Below are positions 5,872 through 17,440 of a stretch of DNA of 33,660 nt, piece after piece (the first letter of the stretch is position 1; every line of letters begins with the position of its first letter). Source of the DNA: Candidatus Arcticimaribacter sp. (GTDB lineage: Bacteria > Bacteroidota > Bacteroidia > Flavobacteriales > Flavobacteriaceae); the NCBI GenBank assembly GCA_011526265.1, contig WTJN01000136.1:1-33660 (forward strand), read 5' to 3'. Made by a program: the position numbers and the translations under genes. The notes beneath the pieces were generated by a model. That model ran no database searches. It worked only from the letters and a program-made list of their open reading frames with translations, and was not told where the DNA came from.

Positions 5872-6594
5872 ATGAACAATAAAACCACGACACGACTTAA
5901 TAAATACATTGCCAATGCAGGTATTTGCTCTCGTAGAGAAGCTGATATGCATATTCAATTAGGGACGGTGACCGTCAATGGAAAGATCGTAACAGAAATG
6001 GGGTACCAAGTCAAATCCGGCGATGAAGTTCGTTTCGATGGTCAGCGTATTTCGAGTGATCAACCCACCTATGTACTGCTCAACAAGCCCAAAGGGTTTT
6101 TAGCCAGTATCAAGAAAGGAAGCTACAAGAAAGACGTTTTGGAACTGATTGCACGGGCGGCTCCTTTTCGGTTGGATCCTGTTTTTGCCATGGACCGTTC
6201 TTCGACCGGTCTCCTGCTTTTTACCAACGATAGTGCTTTGCAAGCCAAGTTTCGTCGACCCAAAATGCGGATAAAAAAAATCTATCAAGTCGTATTGGAT
6301 AAAAATCTCACAGGCGAAGCATTGGGTAAAATAAAAAAGGGCGTGAAGATCGATCAGCAGTTCATCCCGGTGGAAGAAATCAGTTTCATTCCTGGGGAAC
6401 CCAAAAGAGTGGTAGGTTTAGAATTACACGATCAAACCTATAAGGCCGCACAACAAATTTTCGCCAGTTTGGATTATCGTGTAGAACAAATTGACTTGGT
6501 CACTTTTGGCCATCTCACCAAGAAAGATTTACCACGCGGACGCTGGCGTCACCTCTCGGAACAAGAAATCAGCCTATTGAAAATGATGAAATAG
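5872..6594 (+). CDS. S4-domain rRNA pseudouridine synthase (RsuA/RluB/RluF family)
   Basis: A 240-residue protein with an N-terminal S4 RNA-binding domain (RLNKYIANAGICSRREAD, then a TVNGKIV strand) and an RsuA-type catalytic domain. The catalytic Asp is Asp108 in AMDRSSTGLLLFTND; most relatives have GRLDxxTxGLLLLTND, so the Gly-Arg-Leu before the Asp is replaced by Phe-Ala-Met here, although the Asp and following Arg are kept. It isomerises one or a few uridines in ribosomal RNA; the target site is not deducible. It starts 12 bases after the UbiA gene, and its last 21 bases overlap the end of the convergent GT-C gene on the other strand. Confidence 0.9.
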   Translation: MNNKTTTRLNKYIANAGICSRREADMHIQLGTVTVNGKIVTEMGYQVKSGDEVRFDGQRISSDQPTYVLLNKPKGFLASIKKGSYKKDVLELIARAAPFRLDPVFAMDRSSTGLLLFTNDSALQAKFRRPKMRIKKIYQVVLDKNLTGEALGKIKKGVKIDQQFIPVEEISFIPGEPKRVVGLELHDQTYKAAQQIFASLDYRVEQIDLVTFGHLTKKDLPRGRWRHLSEQEISLLKMMK

Positions 6595-7890
6595 CGCTTT
6601 TTTATTTCGCCATTCCCACCAAAAGATACCGTATACCAATCCGTATTCTAAACCAATAAGCCACATGTTTTCGGTAAACGAAGGGGTCGAATATGTGAAG
6701 TAGCTCACAATGACCGCCGCCCCCCATACCATTGGGAAACGGTAAGAAGTGAACACGCCCAGTAAGATAAGATTGACAAGATACCAAGGGTGGACAATCG
6801 AAGCAATGAAATAATAACCGCTTAGCAGGATCAGCATGGCCGAAAATATCTCCTTGGCTGTTTTTTTCTTTTTGTAAAAGGCAAAAAATAGTACCCAACA
6901 CAAAAGAATCCAAGGTACAATTTCACCCCATTGACGAATAATATTATAGCCTTTCCATTGGTAGCCCAAAGATCGGATGAGGTAATAAATACTTCCATTA
7001 AACTCAAATTGTTTGAACCAAAGCTGGATCGTGGCGATATAGGTTGAAAAATCCAAGGAATGAAAAAACGGGAGAAAAAAAAGTAACAAGCCAGTGAGTC
7101 CACACAGGCCCATAATGACGTTGGTTTTTAGCTTTTGAAAACGAATAAAAACAGGATAAAGCAGCAATGGGATGAGCTTGGTCGCCACAGCCGCTGCGAA
7201 AGACAAACTTGCCCAACCGAATTTCTTTTTGGTATACAAATACCAACCACCTAAAAAAAAGAACAACATCAGTCCTTCTCCATGGAGGTTACCCGTTAGT
7301 TCTACAATGACCAGCGGGTGTAAAAAATACCATCCGATGCGATGAGGATTCATTTGAAAATGCGTCAATAAACGTGTTCCCAGAAAAAAGATACCCAAAT
7401 CCGACAAAATAAGCAGCAAGCGCATCCCCACGATAGCACTGAGTATGGAGGAAGAAAACAACTGTGTGGAAAGCCAAAATCCCAGTTGACTGATGGGGGG
7501 GTAATTGGAGTGATTTTCAGCACTGAGTTCTCCCATCTTTTCGAGGAGAAAGGATTGAAAAGGAATAGATTCGTTAGCTATAGCATTGGGTGGAAGGGCA
7601 TACGGGTTTTGTCCCGCATCGAGAAGCAGTCCATCCCAAATGAAGCGATAAAAATCTTGCGATAAGGCAGGAATCGTCCCCAAGAGCAGCAGCCGAAAAA
7701 AAAGTCCTGACCAAAAAATTTGCTTTAACGACAGCTGGGGCAGCCATCGGTAGGCCAAAAAACAAAGGAAAAGAAAGAGGCTGAGCAGTTGGAAAAAATC
7801 AGTCCGATTGGTGGAATACCCAAGGAGTAAATACGCACAACAAGAACAACCGATAAAAAAAAGATTGGAAATTTGAAAACGGTGTATCAT
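6574..7890 (-). CDS. Membrane GT-C type glycosyl(mannosyl)transferase
   Basis: A 438-residue protein made almost wholly of hydrophobic helices (roughly ten or more). An early extracytoplasmic loop carries QDFYRFIWDGLLLDAGQNPY, which resembles the Asp-containing loop of GT-C enzymes that use polyprenyl-phosphate sugars (GT87/PIG-M-like mannosyltransferases). It would transfer a sugar from a lipid-phosphate donor on the periplasmic side of the inner membrane. It is the last gene of the minus-strand operon: its ATG overlaps the stop of the preceding GT2 gene by four bases (ATGA), and two genes upstream lies a DPM1-like synthase that could make its donor. Sugar and acceptor are unknown. Confidence 0.75.
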   Translation of the reverse strand: MIHRFQISNLFFIGCSCCAYLLLGYSTNRTDFFQLLSLFLFLCFLAYRWLPQLSLKQIFWSGLFFRLLLLGTIPALSQDFYRFIWDGLLLDAGQNPYALPPNAIANESIPFQSFLLEKMGELSAENHSNYPPISQLGFWLSTQLFSSSILSAIVGMRLLLILSDLGIFFLGTRLLTHFQMNPHRIGWYFLHPLVIVELTGNLHGEGLMLFFFLGGWYLYTKKKFGWASLSFAAAVATKLIPLLLYPVFIRFQKLKTNVIMGLCGLTGLLLFFLPFFHSLDFSTYIATIQLWFKQFEFNGSIYYLIRSLGYQWKGYNIIRQWGEIVPWILLCWVLFFAFYKKKKTAKEIFSAMLILLSGYYFIASIVHPWYLVNLILLGVFTSYRFPMVWGAAVIVSYFTYSTPSFTENMWLIGLEYGLVYGIFWWEWRNKKALFHHFQ

Positions 7891-9389
7891 CCTTGTGTTC
7901 TAAACGAACTGACAAAAACAAAGCCAAAGCCTAGGAACAAGAGAAGATGAAAGGGAAACAACCCAAAGTCACCTTCTTTCCCTACCACAAACGCGCTGTA
8001 CATCCCAAAGAGGAAATACAGTGACAGCGCCCCTTCAAAAATAGTATTGCGGTGGATTTCCTTGGGTAAATATTTATTGTTTTTCCACGAATCCTTCAGC
8101 GTTTGTATATTGAATTTCGGAGTACGAACAAACTCACTTCGTTTTCCCAAGTGCCCCTCTATGACCGCCAGGGCATTGTGAAATGAAAACCCCATGGCAA
8201 CAGTATAAAAAGTCAAAAATGTTTTGGTGTAATCGATAAAGGAGAAAAAGTCGGAACCATTTTTTCTGCGGTACAATTCCCAGTAACAATAGAAGAAAAT
8301 CATGGTGCTGACGATAAACAGCGAGGAGATTTTGAAAAACCATGCCAAATGCCCCCATTCGTTTTTGATATACAACATGGGTATACTAAGGATCCCGACC
8401 AAAAGAACACTCAAAAACATGGTACTGTTAAGTAAATGCAAAACTGCATGCAGGCGAGTCTTCAATGGCAACTGGTCATGGTTCCACACTTTTTTTACCA
8501 TTTTCTGATAATTTTCTGCGCCTCCTTTATTCCAGCGAAATTGTTGGGATCGAATAGCGCTCATGACCACAGGGAGTTCAGATGGCGTTTGCACATCTTC
8601 AAGGTATTTGAATTTCCATTGTTTGAGCTGTGCACGATAGCTCAAGTCTAAATCTTCTGTTAGGGTGTCCCCTTCCCAATTTCCGGCATCTATAATGGTC
8701 GATTTTCGCCATATCCCAGCTGTGCCATTGAAATTAATAAAGTGCCCTCCAGCATTTCGACCCACTTGTTCGAGTGTAAAATGCGCATCCAATGCAAAGG
8801 CCTGCACTTGTGTTAAGAGTGAATAGTCGTGGTTGATGTGTTCCCAACGGGTTTGAACCACACCGATATTTTCATCGTTAAAGTGAGGTACAGTCTTTCT
8901 CAACCAGTCTTTTCTAGGAAGGAAATCGGCGTCAAAAATGGCAATAAATTCACCTTTGGCTACTGTCAAACCTTCTTTCAATGCGCCGGCTTTAAATCCC
9001 TCTCTGTTTTCTCTTCGAAATTGGATGATGTCCAACCCTTTTTGTTGGAGTTCAATCACCAAACGTTGGGTTAAGGCGACCGATTCGTCGGTGGAATCAT
9101 CTAGGACTTGGATTTCCAAGCGTTCACGGGGGTAATCCATTTGGCTGATGCAGTCGAGTAGTCGCTCCATCACATAAAGTTCATTGAAAACTGGAAGCTG
9201 AATAGTGATATGCGGTACCTTGGAAAGGTCTTCTACAGGAAGGAGATCGAGTGAAGGTTTACGTTGTTGCGCTTTTTTGTAATGAAAGAGAAGGTTGAGC
9301 TGGGCAAGGCTATAGCACAAAACTAGGATCAAGAAAAAGGCATACATCCCCATAACCAGATAGGAAATATTGAGCCAAAAATGATCCAT
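7887..9389 (-). CDS. Processive-type membrane glycosyltransferase family 2 (BcsA-like)
   Basis: A 500-residue enzyme with one N-terminal membrane helix (about 8-30), a cytoplasmic GT-A domain and about four C-terminal helices. GT2 motifs typical of cellulose/hyaluronan synthase relatives are complete: DD (Asp97-Asp98), DAD (Asp153-Asp155), the acceptor-side TED (Glu245-Asp246) and QQFRW (282-286). Such enzymes polymerise or add a sugar from a nucleotide-sugar donor while threading the product through the membrane; ceramide-glucosyltransferase-like and mannan-synthase-like enzymes share the motifs. There is no PilZ domain or BcsB neighbour, so cellulose synthesis is unlikely. It lies between a DPM1-like transferase (10-base gap) and the GT-C gene (4-base overlap). 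Confidence 0.85.
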   Translation of the reverse strand: MDHFWLNISYLVMGMYAFFLILVLCYSLAQLNLLFHYKKAQQRKPSLDLLPVEDLSKVPHITIQLPVFNELYVMERLLDCISQMDYPRERLEIQVLDDSTDESVALTQRLVIELQQKGLDIIQFRRENREGFKAGALKEGLTVAKGEFIAIFDADFLPRKDWLRKTVPHFNDENIGVVQTRWEHINHDYSLLTQVQAFALDAHFTLEQVGRNAGGHFINFNGTAGIWRKSTIIDAGNWEGDTLTEDLDLSYRAQLKQWKFKYLEDVQTPSELPVVMSAIRSQQFRWNKGGAENYQKMVKKVWNHDQLPLKTRLHAVLHLLNSTMFLSVLLVGILSIPMLYIKNEWGHLAWFFKISSLFIVSTMIFFYCYWELYRRKNGSDFFSFIDYTKTFLTFYTVAMGFSFHNALAVIEGHLGKRSEFVRTPKFNIQTLKDSWKNNKYLPKEIHRNTIFEGALSLYFLFGMYSAFVVGKEGDFGLFPFHLLLFLGFGFVFVSSFRTQG

Positions 9390-9399
9390 AGTGTGTTGT

Positions 9400-10086
9400 T
9401 TATGAAAACAAATGTTTGAAAATCCAACCGATGATTTTCATTCCGGCAAAGATAGTGCCTTTTATGGTACCCGACACTTTTGAGACCCCAATTCTTTCGC
9501 GGTAGCGCACGGGAATTTCTTTGTACTTGATTTTTTTACGTAAGACTTTCAATTGCATTTCAACAGTCCATCCATAGGTTTTGTCTTGCATTGCCAAATC
9601 TACTAGGGTCGACCAACGGATGGCACGGAAAGGCCCCAAATCGGTGAATCGACTCCCATATAAAATCCGCATGAGAAAACACGCCAACGCATTGCCAAAA
9701 ATTTGTTGAGGGGTCATGGCTTTTTTCTGTCTTTTTTCTGCCCCTCGACTTCCCACCACAAAATCAACTTCATTTTTCAAAATGGGGTCCACCAATAGCA
9801 CTAATTCCTCGGGGTAGTCGGCGTAATCTCCGTCCATGAATACTAGAATATCTGGTGGTTTGGTAGCTGTCAAATAGTTGATCCCTTTTAGGCAAGCATA
9901 ACCATATCCCTTGTTGTTTTCAGTCAATACTGTAGCTCCAGCATTTTTTGCTTCTTCTTCGGTGTTGTCGGTCGACCCGTTGCTCACCACAACAATTTCA
10001 TCCACAATATCGGGGATGTCACCCACGACTTTGGCAATGGAAGGTCCCTCATTGTAGGCCGGGATGATTACTTTTATTTTAGTCAT
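9400..10086 (-). CDS. DPM1-like glycosyltransferase family 2 (polyprenyl-phosphate sugar synthase)
   Basis: A 228-residue GT2 enzyme. The N-terminus IIPAYNEGPSI, the SNGSTDNT strand-loop, the metal-binding MDGDYADYPEE (Asp85-x-Asp87) and VVGSRG followed by FTDLGPFRAIRW place it with dolichyl-phosphate mannose/glucose synthases. There are no multi-helix C-terminal domains, only one hydrophobic segment (about the last 20 residues), so it is membrane-associated at most. Inferred reaction: nucleotide-sugar plus polyprenyl phosphate gives polyprenyl-phosphate-sugar, the donor class used by GT-C enzymes such as the one at 6574-7890. Its ATG overlaps the TGA of the 4Fe-4S gene by four bases, so the genes are translationally linked. 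Confidence 0.88.
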   Translation of the reverse strand: MTKIKVIIPAYNEGPSIAKVVGDIPDIVDEIVVVSNGSTDNTEEEAKNAGATVLTENNKGYGYACLKGINYLTATKPPDILVFMDGDYADYPEELVLLVDPILKNEVDFVVGSRGAEKRQKKAMTPQQIFGNALACFLMRILYGSRFTDLGPFRAIRWSTLVDLAMQDKTYGWTVEMQLKVLRKKIKYKEIPVRYRERIGVSKVSGTIKGTIFAGMKIIGWIFKHLFS

Positions 10087-11624
10087 TGTTTATCAATGGT
10101 ATTGCCAAGAGGATAGGAGGGGGTGATGGAGCGGTTACTGATAGTTCCATTCTCCAGTTTGAGTACACCACGCGGACAAACGGTGGCACAAATGCCGCAG
10201 CCCACACAAGAGGAACGCACAATGTTTTGACCCCGTTGTGCATAGGCCCTTACATCAATTCCCATTTCACAGTAGGCCGAGCAATTGCCACACGAAATGC
10301 ACTGGCCTCCATTGGTCGTAATCCGAAATCGTGAGAATAGTCGTTGTTGCAACCCTAAAATCGCTGCCATCGGGCATCCAAAACGACACCAGACACGGCT
10401 CCCTAAAAGGGGGTAGAAACCAACTCCCAATACACCAGAAAAGATGGCGCCAATGAAAAACCCATACCATTTGGTAAAACTGTAGCTGGAAAAAAACAAA
10501 ATGTTGTTTTCTCCAGACCATCCACGAACAAGCAGTAGCCCAAGCAGAAGAAGCCCCAAGCTAATTAAGGTGAATCGGGCGTCTGTTCGCATTTCATTTT
10601 TGAAGGCAAACAAAAGGATCAGAAGCATCACCACCAATAAACCGATGACGCCAAAAATAAATTGTTCTGCGTTAATGATGGCCGATGGTGAGGCTTTGCG
10701 AAGAAATGACCAAATCACGGATATGGTAGATAGAACCACCAAAACTAATACCACATGGATGCTCCATCGCTCCAATTTCCACACGCTTATTTTTTTGCTC
10801 GAAAGTTGCCGAAAGGGATCTCCGGCCGTTTCGGCCAATGCCCCACATCCACATACCCAGGAACAATACCAGCGTTTTCCGTAGCGGTAGGTTAAAAATG
10901 GTGAGACCAAAAAAGTCATGGCCAGTCCCGAGAGGAAAAAGAATAAACCCAAACGCCCACCATTGAGCATGTTTTTCAAATGCCATTGGTCAAAAAAATA
11001 GTAGTTCAGCGGCCACATGTTTTTTATGTCCTTCGCAAAATAGGGCGTGTCTGGATGAAGTAGTGCCAAGAGTTCTGGGATAAAAAAAGCAAATCCAAGT
11101 TGAAAAAACATCAAGACCAAGGTGCGAATGATTTGATAGCGCTGTCCTTGGTATTTCATGATAAATTTCACCCCAAAGACCACAATTGCCAAGGTGTACA
11201 AAAGCCCGTAGACAAACCATTGAGTAGCAGGTTTCCCGTTCAGGGTCACACTCAAAGGGTCGAATAGACCAACGATCCCGGTGTTCCCCTCTGGGTGATA
11301 TCCCAGGTGCTGCGGATAAAAGTAAATAAGAATATAAAACACCGTTAGTCCAGAGGCCAGCAGCCATCCCGCCCAACCACGACTTGTTAAAGGATGGATC
11401 CAAACATCATTGTTTTTTATACCAGGCAGCCGTCCCCGATAGAGCGAAAGCGAATAGAGCATCACCCCAGCAGTCATCAAAAAGAGAGAAAAACCTAGCG
11501 TCCACGGTAGGGGCTGTTCGACGACCAATGCGGGGGTAATTAACCCCAGCAGTCCACACCCCCCAAGGAGGAGTCCCAGTGATTGACCATAATTTTGAAT
11601 TATTGATGCGGGTGTTCTTTCCAT
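10083..11624 (-). CDS. Membrane-bound 4Fe-4S protein (NapH/CcoG-like)
   Basis: A 513-residue membrane protein with about eight or more hydrophobic segments and a cytoplasmic ferredoxin-like tail. Within the membrane part are two cysteine motifs reminiscent of NapH/NosR/CcoG proteins: CSWVCGCGALAE and WCRFGCPMAA. The tail holds two 4Fe-4S binding sets: Cys442, 445, 448, 452 and Cys473, 476, 479, 483 (CxxCxxCxxxC and CxxCxxCxxxCP). It should pass electrons between a quinone pool and a soluble or membrane partner. The preceding gene, a FAD oxidoreductase, overlaps its start by 25 bases and is the obvious partner. Its physiological acceptor in this arsenosugar-type operon is unknown. Confidence 0.85.
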   Translation of the reverse strand: MERTPASIIQNYGQSLGLLLGGCGLLGLITPALVVEQPLPWTLGFSLFLMTAGVMLYSLSLYRGRLPGIKNNDVWIHPLTSRGWAGWLLASGLTVFYILIYFYPQHLGYHPEGNTGIVGLFDPLSVTLNGKPATQWFVYGLLYTLAIVVFGVKFIMKYQGQRYQIIRTLVLMFFQLGFAFFIPELLALLHPDTPYFAKDIKNMWPLNYYFFDQWHLKNMLNGGRLGLFFFLSGLAMTFLVSPFLTYRYGKRWYCSWVCGCGALAETAGDPFRQLSSKKISVWKLERWSIHVVLVLVVLSTISVIWSFLRKASPSAIINAEQFIFGVIGLLVVMLLILLFAFKNEMRTDARFTLISLGLLLLGLLLVRGWSGENNILFFSSYSFTKWYGFFIGAIFSGVLGVGFYPLLGSRVWCRFGCPMAAILGLQQRLFSRFRITTNGGQCISCGNCSAYCEMGIDVRAYAQRGQNIVRSSCVGCGICATVCPRGVLKLENGTISNRSITPSYPLGNTIDKQ

Positions 11625-12898
11625 TTTGCGCTGATTTGTTTTTCATATCGACGACTAAACTCAGGATCAAAATTGGCTTTTTCCAACTGTTCTAGTAGAC
11701 TCGTCATTGTAATTTTTTCCTCCAGCCATTGGTCGAATACTTCGTGCCGAAGCCGAAGTCCCAAACTACTTACTCCCTTAAAGATCTTGCTGTCTTTTTC
11801 ATAAGCGAAGCGAAGCGATTTATTTTCTTGCGGTGATTGCCACAGAAAATGGGCTTCATTTTTTGTGGGGAGCGGTAAAATTTCGCCATAGGTTTGATAT
11901 TCAATATCAAAAAATTTAGCACTATTGAACCAGTGTCCGGGGCGGTAGGGAGTGGGGCTGTTGGTCAGGGTTTCTGCTAAGGTTTCTCCCATCATTCGTC
12001 CTGCATACCAAACCGCCTCAATGGCATTGCGGTGGGGGAGGGGGTGCGCTATTTGTGCGCAATCTCCAATGGCATAAATGTGGGGAATGTTGGTTGTGAG
12101 GTATTCGTCTACGACCACACCTTTGTCAATATTCAACCCCGCATTTTTGAGGAAGTCAACGTTGGGACGCACCCCAATCGTGATGCCCATTGTGTCGCAT
12201 TCAAGGTGTTGATCATCTTGGGTGGTGCAGCCAGAGAGTTCACCGTTTCTATCAGTTTCAATGGCTTTTAAGGTGCAGTTAAACCGCAAATCTACTTGAT
12301 GGTCACTGAGATGGTTGGCAATCAGTTGGGCTTCTTCGACACACAAGGCATTCGCCCAGAAGTGGCTTTCGCGCACCAAGTAGGTCACTTCCATTTTTCG
12401 GGAGCGCAACATTTCTGCCAGCTCAACCCCAATAAGTCCACCGCCCACAATGACGCTTTTTTTCTTTCCCTTGCACCACCGGTCCAAGGCTTCTAAATCT
12501 TGTTTGTGGTAAAGGCGAAAAACCCCTTGGCTGTTTTCACCTTTTAAACCCATATCACGGGGAATAGATCCCGTGGCGAGAACCAATTTTTTGTAGGGCA
12601 ATGCTTGGCCATCTTTAAGCACAATTTTTTGCTCGGTAGACATGATTTCTGTCACCCGTCCCTTGATGCGCCCAATCTGGTTGTCCGCCCAAAAACGGTC
12701 TTCATAGGGTTCAAGGTCATTCCATCGCAGGTGCCCCATAAACACATACATGAGGGCTGTCCGCGAGAAAAAAGATTCGTTCTCATCGGAGATCAGCAAT
12801 AGGGGGTGGTTGCTTTTTTTGCGAAAGTGCCGGGCAAATGTGGTTCCAGCGATCCCATTACCTATGATGATTATGGGTGCCGTTGAAGCATTATTCAT
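11600..12898 (-). CDS. NAD(P)/FAD-dependent oxidoreductase (pyridine nucleotide-disulfide family)
   Basis: A 432-residue two-dinucleotide-binding-domain flavoprotein. The FAD motif GNGIAG is at residues 13-18, the second GxGxxG (VGGGLIGVELAEML) lies near residue 150 and the FAD-closing YAIGDCAQI near residue 280. The arrangement resembles rubredoxin/ferredoxin reductases and the N-terminal half of NirB; no redox-active CxxC disulfide is evident. It probably moves electrons between NAD(P)H and the membrane 4Fe-4S protein encoded next, whose start codon lies inside this gene (25-base overlap). A 42-base gap separates it from DUF547 and contains a promoter-like box, so the downstream half of the operon may also be expressed separately. 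Confidence 0.88.
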   Translation of the reverse strand: MNNASTAPIIIIGNGIAGTTFARHFRKKSNHPLLLISDENESFFSRTALMYVFMGHLRWNDLEPYEDRFWADNQIGRIKGRVTEIMSTEQKIVLKDGQALPYKKLVLATGSIPRDMGLKGENSQGVFRLYHKQDLEALDRWCKGKKKSVIVGGGLIGVELAEMLRSRKMEVTYLVRESHFWANALCVEEAQLIANHLSDHQVDLRFNCTLKAIETDRNGELSGCTTQDDQHLECDTMGITIGVRPNVDFLKNAGLNIDKGVVVDEYLTTNIPHIYAIGDCAQIAHPLPHRNAIEAVWYAGRMMGETLAETLTNSPTPYRPGHWFNSAKFFDIEYQTYGEILPLPTKNEAHFLWQSPQENKSLRFAYEKDSKIFKGVSSLGLRLRHEVFDQWLEEKITMTSLLEQLEKANFDPEFSRRYEKQISAKWKEHPHQ

Positions 12899-12940: not shown

Positions 12941-13639
12941 CTACTCATTGAGCGCCCAGTCATAGGGTAAAAAATCAATGCGCGTGTCTCTGGTTACTAC
13001 AATATCGGTATATCGATTGATGAATGCTCTTCGCTCTTGCCGACTGCCAAAATCACTCCCAAACCAAAAGAAAATTTTAGACAGGCTCATTTTTTTTTTC
13101 GTGATAATATTTTTCGTTGGGTCGTTGATGAATTCCCGAGTTGCCGCCTCCAATTGTTTATTCATCCCTTGAGGAAGAAAAGCGCGATTCCGCAAACGCG
13201 GGCAGGAAGCCGACGCACAATTGATGGCAAAATGAATTCTAGGTTCCTTCATTTTCCGCAAAATTTGATGTTCGATATGCCCCAATGAAACCTTTTTGTT
13301 GTTCAGTGTAAAGCGTTTGAACCGCCAAGGCGTGATGAGTCGACGGATGCTTTTAAGGGGGTAATTATCCAGAATAAGCTGCACCGTTACGGCGTTGTAG
13401 GCGTTGATGAAGTAGGCCAGAGAATCGTTCTTGCTCCAATAGGCTTGCGGGGGATTTTCTTCGAGCCCCTGAATGTAACTTTCTAAAAGTGCGGAGTTCT
13501 TCTTCCACCGGGCGTAGTCGACCTCACCACTGTCTGAAACGTAGGTTTGGAGTTGGCTGGTCCACAGATCATGAAGACTTTTTTGGGCCCACGTCCAATG
13601 AGCGGTCAGCACGAAAACAAAGCAAAGAATTGATCGCAT
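12941..13639 (-). CDS. DUF547 domain protein, secreted
   Basis: A 232-residue protein if started at the ATG at 13639; a longer reading from 13663 would only add eight residues before the signal peptide. The N-terminus MRSILCFVFVLTAHWTWAQ is a signal peptide, so the product is periplasmic or envelope-bound. The body is a DUF547 domain: AYFINAYNAVTVQLIL, the long helix-turn after it, and the conserved block HFAINCASASCPRLR with two cysteines. No function is established for DUF547; the domain's Cys/His/Asn conservation has suggested an enzyme. It lies 14 bases after arsM inside the arsenosugar operon, which hints at a role in processing or handling the product outside the cytoplasm. Confidence 0.85.
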   Translation of the reverse strand: MRSILCFVFVLTAHWTWAQKSLHDLWTSQLQTYVSDSGEVDYARWKKNSALLESYIQGLEENPPQAYWSKNDSLAYFINAYNAVTVQLILDNYPLKSIRRLITPWRFKRFTLNNKKVSLGHIEHQILRKMKEPRIHFAINCASASCPRLRNRAFLPQGMNKQLEAATREFINDPTKNIITKKKMSLSKIFFWFGSDFGSRQERRAFINRYTDIVVTRDTRIDFLPYDWALNE

Positions 13640-13653
13640 AGCGCAGTAGTGAG

Positions 13654-14628
13654 TTAACAGCACCCCCCACCGTCATAATGATAGGTGGACGCGCTAATGA
13701 ATAGATCATCTCGTTCGAGCTGCTGAAGTTGACTTGCGGTTTTGTCGCAAACGGCCAAGGGCTGATTGTGCAACAGCACATGTCCTTTCTGATCATCGAA
13801 GAACGCCTCGTTTCCAAAGTAGATTGCGGTTTTTCCAGTAAACACACAGGGTCCATCGTTGGGCATTGGGTCTTTGATTGCACAGACTTCCACACTCTCG
13901 ATATAGATCATTTCTTGGGTGGGGAATTGCCCGGGGGGCAAGAGGCGATAAGGTCTTTTTGCCCGTATTTCGATGGTACCAAATCCTACCTCGGTCAGTG
14001 CATTGACATAGGCTTCCAACGGAATGGCCCCCGACAGGCACAGCGCCCGAAGGCGGTCGTCGCTCCGCAGGGTTTCGTTCATGTGTTGGTTGCAAATGGG
14101 ATCACTCATGACCAATCGTCCGTGGGGTTTCAGCACACGGTACATTTCGCGGAGGGCTTGGGTCAGCTCATTTTGTTTAAAAATGTTGAACAGGCAGTTT
14201 TGTGCAGCAACATCCATGCTTTCGTCGGCCACCGGTAAGGCCAATGCGTCGCCTTTTTCGAGACGTACATAGGAGGACTTGAACCAATCATTCATGGCCT
14301 CGGCTTCTTTAAAGTTTTCTTGAGAAGCTTCGAGCATTTCATCGACGACATCAACTCCCGTCACCCCAGCTTCTTGTCTAGAAAAATAGGCGAATTGTAA
14401 TAGTTCCATACCACCGCCAACACCGACATAGAGAATTTTTGGTTGATTGACCAAATCGCGGGGATGTACCGTTGATCCACAGCCGTAGTTCATTTCTTGC
14501 ATGATGGTGGGGATTTGTAATCCAGGGAGCTGCCACACTGGGGTGGTGGTGCAACACAGTCCAACATCGGGGGTTAAAGCAGCGTCCTTGTATAGTTCTT
14601 TGGTGGCGTCGAGATAGTGTGCGGTCAT
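13654..14628 (-). CDS. arsM: Arsenite S-adenosylmethionine methyltransferase of arsenosugar type
   Basis: A 324-residue class I SAM methyltransferase. The SAM-binding loop is ILYVGVGGG (residues 65-73), preceded by thiol groups expected to bind trivalent arsenic: the Cys25-Cys26 pair and Cys50 in NYGCGST; further cysteines are in QNCLFN and DPICN. A C-terminal extension ends in GGGCC (Cys323-Cys324), a second possible metalloid-binding site. ArsM converts arsenite stepwise to methyl- and dimethylarsenicals; in arsenosugar organisms the dimethyl form is the substrate for ArsS. The gene overlaps the phosphorylase stop by four bases (ATGA), and ArsS is three genes upstream. Naming rests on motif plus context. 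Confidence 0.88.
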   Translation of the reverse strand: MTAHYLDATKELYKDAALTPDVGLCCTTTPVWQLPGLQIPTIMQEMNYGCGSTVHPRDLVNQPKILYVGVGGGMELLQFAYFSRQEAGVTGVDVVDEMLEASQENFKEAEAMNDWFKSSYVRLEKGDALALPVADESMDVAAQNCLFNIFKQNELTQALREMYRVLKPHGRLVMSDPICNQHMNETLRSDDRLRALCLSGAIPLEAYVNALTEVGFGTIEIRAKRPYRLLPPGQFPTQEMIYIESVEVCAIKDPMPNDGPCVFTGKTAIYFGNEAFFDDQKGHVLLHNQPLAVCDKTASQLQQLERDDLFISASTYHYDGGGCC

Positions 14629-15443
14629 AATTGTTGGATTAAATTTTTTACTAGTACAATCAATACTTTTTCTGCTTTTTTGGCTTGTGCGAATATGTCT
14701 TCGAGATCAATGGGCGCAAGGGCATCGGGGTCACACACATCGGTGAGCGCGGAAAAAGCAATGCAAGGGAACTCCAATTGGTTGGCAACAATAACTTCTG
14801 GGACGGTAGACATGCCTACTGCATCGGCGCCGATTGTTTTGAGATAGCGGTATTCTGCGCGGGTTTCGAGTTGGGGTCCAAGCACAGCCGCATAGACGCC
14901 ACGGTGCAACAAAAGACCGTGTTCATGCGCAACTTCCATGCATATTTCCATCATCTTTTTGTCATATGGGCGGCACATGTCTACAAAGCGCGGCCCGAGT
15001 TGGTCAATATCTTTTTCGGCCAATGGCGAACCGCCTTGAAGATTGATGTGATCGTCGATGAGCATCACTTCTCCCTTGTTGTAATCTAGATTGATGGCCC
15101 CAGCGGCATTGCTGATGATGAGTCGCTTTGTCCCCAGTGAATGCATCACTCGAACAGGATAGGTGATGCTGAAATAGTCCAAGGCTTCATAGGCGTGAAA
15201 ACGCCCTTCGAAAACAAGCACATCTCTACCCGCGTAATGTGCGTGATGCAGTTGGGCGGCATGATATTCCATGGACGACTTTGGAAAGTAAGGAATGTCG
15301 TTATAGGGGATGCTTTTTTTGATCGTCAATTCATGCACCAAGGCATTGAGTCCCGTGCCCAAAATAATGCCCGTGGGGATGGCATCGAATCCTTCTTTTT
15401 TCAGGAAGTCAGCGGTAGTTTTTAGTTGCTCATTTTTTGTCAT
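14625..15443 (-). CDS. Purine nucleoside phosphorylase (trimeric PNP/MTAP family) with MTAP-like specificity residues
   Basis: A 272-residue trimeric-type phosphorylase: GTGLNAL phosphate loop, EGRFHAYE, SNAAGAIN, and GPQLETRAEY with the base-side Glu. At the position of human PNP Asn243 (ITN motif) this protein has Asp235 (LTDVCD), and at that of His257 it appears to have Leu247 (LEDI). Methylthioadenosine phosphorylase likewise has Asp and Val there, which favour an adenine base and a non-hydroxyl 5' group. In the operon this fits phosphorolysis of the 5'-deoxy-5'-dimethylarsinoyl-adenosine made by ArsS, releasing adenine and an arsenoribose-1-phosphate. The family call is firm; the substrate is inference. 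It overlaps the glycosyltransferase by 14 bases and arsM by four. Confidence 0.92.
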   Translation of the reverse strand: MTKNEQLKTTADFLKKEGFDAIPTGIILGTGLNALVHELTIKKSIPYNDIPYFPKSSMEYHAAQLHHAHYAGRDVLVFEGRFHAYEALDYFSITYPVRVMHSLGTKRLIISNAAGAINLDYNKGEVMLIDDHINLQGGSPLAEKDIDQLGPRFVDMCRPYDKKMMEICMEVAHEHGLLLHRGVYAAVLGPQLETRAEYRYLKTIGADAVGMSTVPEVIVANQLEFPCIAFSALTDVCDPDALAPIDLEDIFAQAKKAEKVLIVLVKNLIQQL

Positions 15444-16041
15444 CGATTACTGCCATTAGTTCGGGAAATTGTTGCAAATCCTCGTAGGTATCAATATCGG
15501 TTTTTTCTTCCAATAAATGTACTTTTTTAGTCGCCAAATCGTTGAGGGTATCTTGCAACACGGTCGATGTGCTCCAAGACTTATTTTCAAACAACTGCGG
15601 GATGAAATATCGGGTACCCAAAAGATAATAACCCCCGTCGGTGGACGGGCCCAATACGGCATCGTGTTGATCGAGTTGTTCGATGGCGGTACGGATCATT
15701 TGCTTTTGCAATGACCACAGGTCAGTTCCTATAATGATTACTTTTTGGTGGGTGGCAAAGCCTTGTCGAAACGCATGAGCCATGCGGGTTCCCAGGTCGT
15801 CTCCTTGTTGAACGGATATTTCTGCCCGAATCGATTGGAATGCCTTTGCGGTCATATGATCACTGTACCAGAGGTGAAAATCAACGTCCAAACCTTGGAC
15901 TGCTTCAGCTGTTTTGCGGAGCAGCTGCTGATAGATTTTCAAGGCGTTATCTTCCCCAATGGTTTTGGCAAGACGTGTCTTTACTTTTCCTTTTACAGGT
16001 GCTTTGCAAAAAATCAAAAGCAAGGGCCGTTTCGTTTCCAT
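15430..16041 (-). CDS. Arsenosugar-associated CofC-like glycosyltransferase (TIGR04282 type)
   Basis: A 203-residue protein if begun at the ATG at 16041 (METKRPLLLIF); an upstream in-frame start at 16089 would lie inside arsS and adds a non-conserved stretch. It resembles the radical-SAM-associated CofC/GT-A-like family: APVKGKVKTRLAKTIG near the N-terminus, IGTDLWSL and AVLGPSTDGGYYLLG. Family members occur beside ArsS. The presumed role is transfer of the arsenoribosyl group to an aglycone such as glycerol, but a nucleotidyltransferase-like activity is also compatible with the CofC fold. It starts two bases after the arsS stop and overlaps the phosphorylase start by 14 bases. Confidence 0.85.
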   Translation of the reverse strand: METKRPLLLIFCKAPVKGKVKTRLAKTIGEDNALKIYQQLLRKTAEAVQGLDVDFHLWYSDHMTAKAFQSIRAEISVQQGDDLGTRMAHAFRQGFATHQKVIIIGTDLWSLQKQMIRTAIEQLDQHDAVLGPSTDGGYYLLGTRYFIPQLFENKSWSTSTVLQDTLNDLATKKVHLLEEKTDIDTYEDLQQFPELMAVIDDKK

Positions 16042-16043
16042 AT

Positions 16044-17105
16044 TTAAGCAATACTTCCTTGGCAACTGCTTCCTGCTCCAGCGGTGCACCCATAACAGTG
16101 TTGCCCCAAAACTATCGACCTATCTTGCACCTTCCCGAGTTCAAAGTTGTGGATATGATCAACGGAGCTACTGATTTTTAATTGAAGCATCTGATTAAAA
16201 TCACAATCATAGAGATGGCCGTCCCAACTCACCGACAATGTATTGGTACACATCACATTTTTGGCGGCCAGTGGATTGAAGGCTTCCACCAGCGTTTGCA
16301 TGTATTCCTCATAGTTTTCGGAGGCCAACAAATATTCTAGAAATCGACTAATGGGCAGATTGGTGATGGTAAATAAATGGTGAAAATCAATGCCAAAATC
16401 GGTTTTTAAAGCCCGTTTAAAATCCGTTTCCAACGCTTGTTGATCTCCCGGCAAAAACGCTCCCGAGGGGTTGTAGACCAAATCGAGGAGCAGGGGAGAA
16501 TCGGGCCTTCCGTAGCCTTTATTGTTCAACAATTGAAGCGCTTCCATGGATTGTTGAAACACGCCGTCTCCGCGTTGTCGGTCGGTTTTGTTTTTCTTGT
16601 AAAAAGGCAAAGATGAAATGACGTGCACCTTGTTTTTTACAAAAAAATCAGGCAGATCATGGAATTTTTTATTGGCCAAAAGGATGGTTAAATTCGACCG
16701 TACGATGATTTCTTTTACCGCTGTTGTTGCTCTGATTTGTGTGACGAACCATCGAAAATCGGGATGCATTTCTGGTGCACCACCCGTTAAATCGACTGTT
16801 ACGATTGTGTGTTGCCGCATGACTGAGAGACAGTCTTCGAGCGTAGATCGGGTCATGATCTCTTTGCGGTCGGGCCCGGCATCTACATGGCAATGCGCAC
16901 AGACCTGATTGCACATATAGCCCAAATTGATTTGAAGAATTTCCAGTAGCTTGGGTCGTAATGGACCGCAGTTGTATTGGTCCAATTTTTCGGTAAAGGT
17001 AGGCAAGCGCCCATCGGCAAAAGGGCCATCGTTCAGCAAGGCCAACTGTGCCTTGGGTGCTGCCAAGCGATTGCCGCGCGACAGCAGCGATTTTTTATTT
17101 TTCAT
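16044..17105 (-). CDS. arsS: Arsenosugar biosynthesis radical SAM protein ArsS
   Basis: A 353-residue radical SAM enzyme started at the ATG at 17105, which overlaps the preceding TAA by one base (TAATG); a longer frame to 17267 runs through the upstream gene and is rejected. The 4Fe-4S motif is Cys65-x3-Cys69-x2-Cys72 in NLGYMCNQVCAHCHVDAGP, the family signature. The C-terminal Cys-rich segment contains CTNTLSVSWDGHLYDCDFNQML and ends CYGCTAGAGSSCQGSIA. Some relatives carry selenocysteine in this tail; here every position is a sense Cys codon. ArsS joins the 5'-deoxyadenosyl group of SAM to dimethylarsenite, the committed arsenosugar step. Second gene of the operon. Confidence 0.93.
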   Translation of the reverse strand: MKNKKSLLSRGNRLAAPKAQLALLNDGPFADGRLPTFTEKLDQYNCGPLRPKLLEILQINLGYMCNQVCAHCHVDAGPDRKEIMTRSTLEDCLSVMRQHTIVTVDLTGGAPEMHPDFRWFVTQIRATTAVKEIIVRSNLTILLANKKFHDLPDFFVKNKVHVISSLPFYKKNKTDRQRGDGVFQQSMEALQLLNNKGYGRPDSPLLLDLVYNPSGAFLPGDQQALETDFKRALKTDFGIDFHHLFTITNLPISRFLEYLLASENYEEYMQTLVEAFNPLAAKNVMCTNTLSVSWDGHLYDCDFNQMLQLKISSSVDHIHNFELGKVQDRSIVLGQHCYGCTAGAGSSCQGSIA

Positions 17106-17440
17106 TACATGCTCAGTTGATCGTGACGATTCATCATTTGCACCCCGTGGACCAGTGCAGCGCCACTTTTGATGGCGGCCCCCACATGAATGGCTTCCAT
17201 CATTTCTTCTTTTTCGATGCCTTTTTGGAGGCCATCTTTGGTGTATGCATCGATGCAATAAGGGCATTGAACCACGTGAGAAACGGCCAGAGCGATGAGC
17301 GATTTTTCACGGGCGGAGAGTTCTCCTTCGGCAAAAACACTGTTGTAATAAGCAAAAAATTTATCGCCCAATTCAGGTTGCCAATCGCTGATGCTGCCAA
17401 ATTTTTTCAGGTCTTGTGGATCGTAATAATTGTTTTTCAT
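17105..17440 (-). CDS. Arsenosugar biosynthesis-associated AhpD/CMD-like protein
   Basis: A 111-residue carboxymuconolactone decarboxylase/AhpD-fold protein. The redox pair is Cys59-x-x-Cys62 in SHVVQCPYCIDAYTKDG, with His55 four residues before it; the residue that is often His in AhpD (four after the second Cys) is Tyr66. Members of this subfamily consistently lie next to ArsS genes, so it may act as a thiol peroxidase or reductase that keeps arsenic intermediates trivalent, but no activity is established to my knowledge. It is the first gene of the operon, with a promoter-like box 17 bases upstream, and its stop overlaps the arsS start by one base. Confidence 0.88.
   Translation of the reverse strand: MKNNYYDPQDLKKFGSISDWQPELGDKFFAYYNSVFAEGELSAREKSLIALAVSHVVQCPYCIDAYTKDGLQKGIEKEEMMEAIHVGAAIKSGAALVHGVQMMNRHDQLSM

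Follow-up and report, generated by a model that had tools for sequence, protein, structure and literature searches.

A purine-nucleoside phosphorylase in flavobacterial arsenosugar gene clusters as a candidate for adenine removal from the ArsS product

Arsenosugars rank among the major organic arsenicals of marine organisms. ArsM and ArsS account for their methyl and adenosyl groups, and we know of no enzyme assigned to the step that removes adenine. Searches of the open-access literature turned up no named enzyme for the removal of adenine or the activation of the sugar in arsenosugar synthesis; one paper describes a radical SAM enzyme that adenosylates arsenic in the synthesis of oxo-arsenosugar (PMC12159101). 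The window (the whole stretch of 33,660 nucleotides analysed here, from Candidatus Arcticimaribacter sp.) encodes a phosphorylase between ArsM and ArsS. This raises the question of whether the phosphorylase takes the adenine-removal step, as a sequence-only reading had proposed from two active-site residues that resemble those of methylthioadenosine phosphorylase (MTAP).

The phosphorylase and its gene cluster

In the window, we detected ArsS, ArsM and TIGR04282 proteins that all score above their NCBIfam cut-offs, marking an arsenosugar gene cluster (Table 1). The genes overlap, arsS and the TIGR04282 gene by 46 bp, the TIGR04282 and phosphorylase genes by 14 bp, the phosphorylase gene and arsM by 4 bp, and arsM and the DUF547 gene by 10 bp. 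The best TIGR04283 score among the ten proteins of the cluster is 29 bits (cut-off 182), and no window ORF of at least 110 aa within 7 kb joined the TIGR04283 group. This cluster without TIGR04283 carries an AglJ-like and a PgaC-like GT2 gene and an MptB-like gene at 6574-10086, which might point to a polyprenyl-phosphate-linked sugar.

Table 1. Genes of the arsenosugar cluster in the window
Feature	Position	Strand	Evidence
ArsS radical SAM (TIGR04167)	16044..17267	minus	433 bits, cut-off 300
TIGR04282 'arsenosugar biosynthesis glycosyltransferase', CofC-like	15430..16089	minus	209.9 bits, cut-off 134; GKVKTRL; proposed nucleotidyltransferase
PNP-family phosphorylase (P0001)	14625..15443	minus	272 aa; Asp235 and Leu247 at the flagged positions
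ArsM, arsenosugar type (NF038099)	13654..14628	minus	559 bits, cut-off 400
DUF547 protein	12941..13663	minus	PF04784
Pyridine nucleotide-disulphide oxidoreductase	11600..12898	minus	PF07992
Fe-S protein with NapH-like part	10083..11624	minus	profile matches
GT2 glycosyltransferase, AglJ model best	9400..10086	minus	under every NCBIfam cut-off; TIGR04283 29 bits, cut-off 182
GT2, PgaC/CelA-like	7887..9389	minus	under NCBIfam cut-offs
Weakly alpha-1,6-mannosyltransferase-like (MptB)	6574..7890	minus	27 bits, cut-off 40

By whole-protein score, the phosphorylase is a purine-nucleoside phosphorylase (PNP), with 306.1 bits against NF006054 (cut-off 218) and 250 bits against TIGR01697 (cut-off 197.1). 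It scores below the cut-offs of TIGR01700, which represents the inosine/guanosine-specific PNP I (242.6 bits, cut-off 293.35), and of the MTAP model TIGR01694 (85.2 bits, cut-off 274.85). The AlphaFold2 model (pLDDT 92.1, 17 sequences) has the Spirosoma PNP 4lna as its top PDB match (Z 39.1, rmsd 1.4), followed by other PNPs; MTAP chains are absent among the 50 PDB matches listed, which excludes nothing.

The two flagged residues were placed by sequence alignment, the fold comparison yielding ranges and no residue pairs. MAFFT aligns Asp235 with human PNP Asn243 and MTAP Asp220, and Leu247 with human PNP His257 and MTAP Val233, just as the sequence-only reading had them; the human PNP and MTAP sequences used match their PDB chains letter for letter. 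A larger alignment gives identical letters, and neither the Asn nor the His of human-type PNP occurs at these positions. The same Asp and Leu are present in the PNPs of Spirosoma linguale (4lna, 47% identity) and Planctomyces limnophilus (4m1e, 42% identity), to which the loop aligns ungapped with phmmer; both share the fold (Z 39), a likeness that concerns the protein alone.

The chemistry behind the two residues is sound. In excerpts of PMC5074518, the N256D variant of Kluyveromyces lactis PNP, altered at the same position, prefers adenosine over inosine, xanthosine and guanosine in that order, which agrees with the earlier claim that Asp at the base position favours 6-amino substrates. Human PNP accepts adenosine prodrugs when Glu201Gln and Asn243Asp are combined (PMC2799393, in part), and the Glu201 equivalent is kept in the window PNP. 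The further claim, that a hydrophobic residue suits a 5'-modified substrate, fits passages of PMC5147791 in which human PNP His257 touches O5' and the liking of MTAP for 5'-substituted nucleosides is ascribed to its hydrophobic ribose site.

The rest of the first shell is PNP-like, with Glu193, Phe153, Tyr85 and Asn112 standing for human PNP Glu201, Phe159, Tyr88 and Asn115, where MTAP has Ser178, His137, Ile67 and Thr93; equivalents of human PNP His64 and His86 are also present. The window PNP thus shares with human MTAP (1cb0) the Asp at the base position and, near the ribose 5' end, a small hydrophobic residue, but lacks its Ser178, His137, Asp222 and Ile67, and differs from human PNP in the replaced Asn243 and His257. 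The description as MTAP-like holds for the two flagged positions and not for the protein as a whole. With the Glu201 and Phe159 equivalents retained, the pocket is not of the MTAP kind, which speaks against a role on the ArsS product.

The window PNP has a long terminal branch in our tree, longer than those of its nearest relatives (0.70 versus 0.16 for L143), as a decaying gene might, but a pN/pS of 0.28-0.34 against five relatives, with synonymous sites saturated, speaks against decay and makes purifying selection likely. The protein also carries odd letters at family-wide positions, for example Ala87 and Leu88 in place of the Gly and Tyr of nearly all other sequences.

Distribution and age of the residue pair

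Named relatives of the window PNP are mostly Flavobacteriaceae, and the window's own family (f1), in the phylum Bacteroidota, is taken as Flavobacteriaceae or part of it. All 98 other ars-type loci, some being the same organism fetched twice, have Asp together with Ile or Val, and the window alone has Leu; this conservation is more than chance. Asp with a hydrophobic residue is also found in 27 of the 29 PNP loci fetched from ArsS-bearing genomes outside f1; their fetched flanks of 1-4 kb are free of ars genes. The same holds for the residues in 29 of the 30 loci that score best among 80 ArsS-lacking genomes, a similarity-picked and hence biased set. These 80 genomes were searched out of 219 ArsS-lacking genomes outside f1: 78 have a PNP match, and 66 (counted by eye) reach at least 230 bits, a score range where the typed PNP loci (the top 30 and some lower-scoring ones) are almost all Asp/hydrophobic. 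ArsS-bearing genomes have a PNP match in 154 of 156 cases.

Other residue pairs mark other PNPs. A second PNP type in f1 has Asp and His in 12 of 12 loci, a pair also present in 6 of 12 mixed further PNP loci. Low-scoring second copies, where typed, have the classical Asn and His (7/7), and in three of these genomes an Asp/hydrophobic copy was typed too. One locus (L224, 8376-10029, genome G049) holds a tandem pair of PNP genes of the same type as the window PNP, with ars genes absent nearby.

The tree was computed from 106 of 189 PNP rows (60 of the 80 named loci described below and other rows being omitted) by a quick search that gave a long-branch warning. The ars-linked PNPs form one clade in it (39 rows, SH-aLRT 98), nested among unlinked Asp/hydrophobic PNPs, the nearest of which are L093 and L099. 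L093 blurs the line between linked and unlinked: with wider flanks (locus L223, genome G045), genes for TIGR04282 and DUF547 adjoin its PNP gene; neither ArsS nor arsenosugar-type ArsM was found in that genome.

Two readings of this distribution were rejected. The residue pair is not an ars-specific signature, being common to unlinked PNPs of ArsS-lacking genomes and older on the tree, and this PNP type is not a phylum-wide arsenosugar gene, given the matches in 78 of the 80 ArsS-lacking genomes searched. As the tree has it, the Asp/hydrophobic pocket predates the joining of the PNP gene to the ars genes. Because the two residues are older than the ars linkage and present in ArsS-lacking genomes, they are an inherited feature rather than an arsenic-specific one, at most a pre-adaptation to 6-amino, 5'-modified nucleosides. 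With the pair common to many bacterial relatives that have no relation to arsenic, gene neighbourhood is therefore the stronger evidence.

Other columns do distinguish the ars clade from PNPs without the linkage (human PNP positions 63, 145, 148, 149, 160, 199, 246 and others; 98 versus 54 rows, the second set restricted to rows with Asp and without His). Several adjoin the active-site residues His64, Phe159, Phe200/Glu201 and Asn243; the ars rows being a single clade, adaptation and drift are not distinguishable in these columns.

Linkage to TIGR04282 and ArsS, and MTAPs in other clusters

ArsS was identified in 156 of the 395 genomes of the phylum. Within f1, the ars-clade PNP is present in all 18 ArsS-bearing genomes (17 fetched and the window) versus one of 20 without ArsS (G182), a co-occurrence with a Fisher p of 1e-9 in which kinship is ignored; the remaining ArsS-lacking genomes comprise nine with the Asp/His type and ten without a match at E 1e-8. 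Genus g2 has the ars PNP in 3/3 ArsS-bearing versus 0/17 ArsS-lacking genomes, and there it is an extra copy, with the Asp/His-type PNP elsewhere in the genome. The gap between the PNP and TIGR04282 genes is at most 200 nt in 17 of the 18 ArsS-bearing f1 genomes and 3.3 kb in G218. In four of the 18, ArsS lies away from the PNP locus and the PNP gene still neighbours TIGR04282. Three of these have arsM alongside as well; in the fourth (G304), no arsenosugar-type ArsM was found in the genome. ArsS occurs twice in one genome (G286).

Controls gave ars genes in 0 of 13 unlinked PNP loci with flanks of 1.8-4 kb, and arsS, arsM or TIGR04282 in 0 of 4 with flanks of about 7-9 kb. Outside f1, none of the 23 ArsS loci fetched contains PNP, which counts against a role in the pathway.

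A second set was chosen by PNP similarity alone. A scan of contigs with an alignment of 17 PNPs gave 579 confirmed relatives, of which the best 80 were taken; these named loci partly overlap the genomes above, so the two sets are not independent. TIGR04282 lies within 1.5 kb in 78 of these 80 loci (no match in the loci L151 and L187), while arsM is in the locus in 60 and arsS in 50 (BLAST above 60 bits; either gene in 66), making TIGR04282 the most constant partner of the PNP. Across 98 loci (the best 80 of 579 and 18 others), PNP and TIGR04282 occur together in 96, on one strand in 95 and within 200 nt in 91. Among 99 loci, three further gene groups turn up repeatedly within 7 kb (in 62, 61 and 57 loci), and one typed representative of each was TIGR04283, a rhodanese (NF045521) and TIGR04169, respectively.

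At the level of the genome, ArsS is present in 74 of the best 80 (50 in the locus, 24 elsewhere) and was not found in the other six (L153, L166, L202, L203, L204 and L220), three of which are isolates (L202, L203 and L220). The persistence of the PNP/TIGR04282 pair without ArsS in these six, in G182 and in G045 also argues against the pathway, and the substrate in such genomes may be another 5'-modified nucleoside.

One PDB match was found for the TIGR04282 protein, the putative nucleotide-diphospho-sugar transferase 3cgx. It scores 60 bits against the NCBIfam CofC model (cut-off 105) and 38.9 bits against that of Pfam (cut-off 22). The motif GxxK[ST]RL, which we take to be common to CofC-like nucleotidyltransferases, is present in 87 of 96 TIGR04282 neighbours by a pattern that was relaxed after the sequences had been seen (stricter patterns had matched 23/96 and then 49/96); among the misses, some ORFs are truncated or mis-started and others have KKRL or KRRL.

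Plasmid-borne ArsS was found in six genera, Burkholderia accounting for 47 of the 52 records, and neighbourhoods were inspected in one record per genus. Burkholderia glumae has a gene annotated as S-methyl-5'-thioadenosine phosphorylase next to those for TIGR04283 and TIGR04282, with ArsS about 6 kb away. In Acinetobacter portensis, MTAP lies three genes beyond TIGR04282, on the opposite strand and 6.5 kb from ArsS. An unannotated Cupriavidus record has an ORF with 41% identity to human MTAP beside TIGR04282, which it overlaps in its longest reading, 3.5 kb from ArsS. In Burkholderia and Acinetobacter, the unrelated genes between MTAP and ArsS, or the change of strand, count against the pathway.

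All three proteins pass TIGR01694 with 276, 315 and 312 bits (cut-off 274.85) and keep the Asp220/Asp222 pair, with Gly at Ser178 in Cupriavidus and Ala at Val233 in Acinetobacter. They (L231, L233 and L234) resemble the window PNP in their gene setting with TIGR04282 and ArsS, but belong by score to the MTAP family, another branch of the superfamily. A different phosphorylase family thus seems to fill the same slot in proteobacterial clusters. MTAP-like matches occur on 81 of 72,556 plasmid records; these three genera supply 49, and the 32 that come from other genera count against the pathway. No MTAP or PNP was found within 8 kb of the plasmid ArsS of Hymenobacter, Pseudanabaena and Thiodictyon, and their absence from three of the six genera is a further point against the pathway. 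As MTAP acts on 5'-deoxy-5'-substituted adenosine, the presence of a true MTAP near ArsS in three lineages is the best support for an arsenonucleoside substrate.

A proposed pathway and its alternatives

We consider it fairly probable that a phosphorylase of the PNP-I fold was recruited into the arsenosugar pathway of Flavobacteriaceae, where it would cleave the ArsS product and feed the TIGR04282 and GT2 enzymes. Of the earlier proposal, the role on the ArsS nucleoside draws support from the conserved clustering and from true MTAPs in three proteobacterial clusters, while the residue argument is weak, the residues being older and widespread. The window phosphorylase itself probably removes adenine from an arsenic-containing nucleoside.

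In the proposed sequence, ArsM would methylate arsenic and ArsS would then adenosylate it, both activities being published for other bacteria. With phosphate, the phosphorylase would split 5'-deoxy-5'-dimethylarsinoyl-adenosine, releasing adenine and 5-deoxy-5-dimethylarsinoyl-ribose-1-phosphate. Phosphorolysis leaves the anomeric carbon in an activated state, so the CofC-like TIGR04282 protein could turn this sugar-1-phosphate, a natural substrate for such a nucleotidyltransferase, into a nucleotide sugar, which would explain the use of a phosphorylase rather than a hydrolase. A GT2 enzyme could transfer the arsenosugar unit onto glycerol or lipid. We put forward more tentatively, as somewhat short of an even chance, the fuller proposal of two separate recruitments for phosphorolytic adenine removal (a pre-adapted PNP in Flavobacteriaceae, MTAP in Proteobacteria) with TIGR04282 as a CofC-like nucleotidyltransferase, not a glycosyltransferase, that yields NDP-5-dimethylarsinoyl-ribose.

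It is possible, if rather unlikely, that the enzyme is a general adenosine, methylthioadenosine or 5'-deoxyadenosine phosphorylase located in the cluster and used for ordinary salvage or for both purposes. PNPs of the Asp/hydrophobic type are widespread independently of ArsS, PNP occurs with TIGR04282 where ArsS is lacking, and the window PNP, the sole PF01048 protein found in its own genome (82% complete), may have a double role that includes general purine salvage. The ArsS-lacking f1 genome G182 bears on the same point. Its locus (L123, 7861-13896, minus strand) encodes TIGR04283, DUF547, PNP, TIGR04282, a rhodanese, an ADP-ribosylglycohydrolase and, third past TIGR04282, a protein resembling 5-methylthioribose kinase (129.5 bits, cut-off 275); neither ArsS nor ArsM was found in the genome, and the cluster may hint at another 5-modified ribose. 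Salvage fits poorly, however, with the conserved tight linkage of the PNP to TIGR04282, ArsM and ArsS, with its position in g2 as a second copy beside another PNP, and with a DeoD-type PNP elsewhere (L125) in at least one f1 genome (G103).

An ordinary inosine/guanosine PNP in which both residues are neutral is improbable: the best whole-protein score (NF006054) and the retained Glu201 agree with it, but Asp takes the place of the hydrogen-bond donor to O6 (PMC5074518, in excerpt), the score lies below the cut-off of the inosine/guanosine-specific model, and classical Asn/His PNPs exist as second copies.

Least probable, and very much so, is arsenolysis, by which a nucleoside and arsenate would give ribose-1-arsenate, easily reduced to arsenite that feeds ArsM; the PNP gene adjoins arsM and parts of PMC12608789 describe PNP as arsenate-reducing in vitro, but the closer constancy of TIGR04282 than of arsM and the MTAPs of other clusters are left unexplained by a reaction of which many phosphorylases are capable.

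The adenine-removal step of the favoured pathway is testable, as the PNP/TIGR04282 gene pair is present in cultured flavobacteria. In Sinomicrobium weinanense (L202), in whose genome ArsS was not found, genes for TIGR04282, PNP, two GT2 enzymes and an MptB-like protein lie in a row at 7299-12359 and resemble the window genes.
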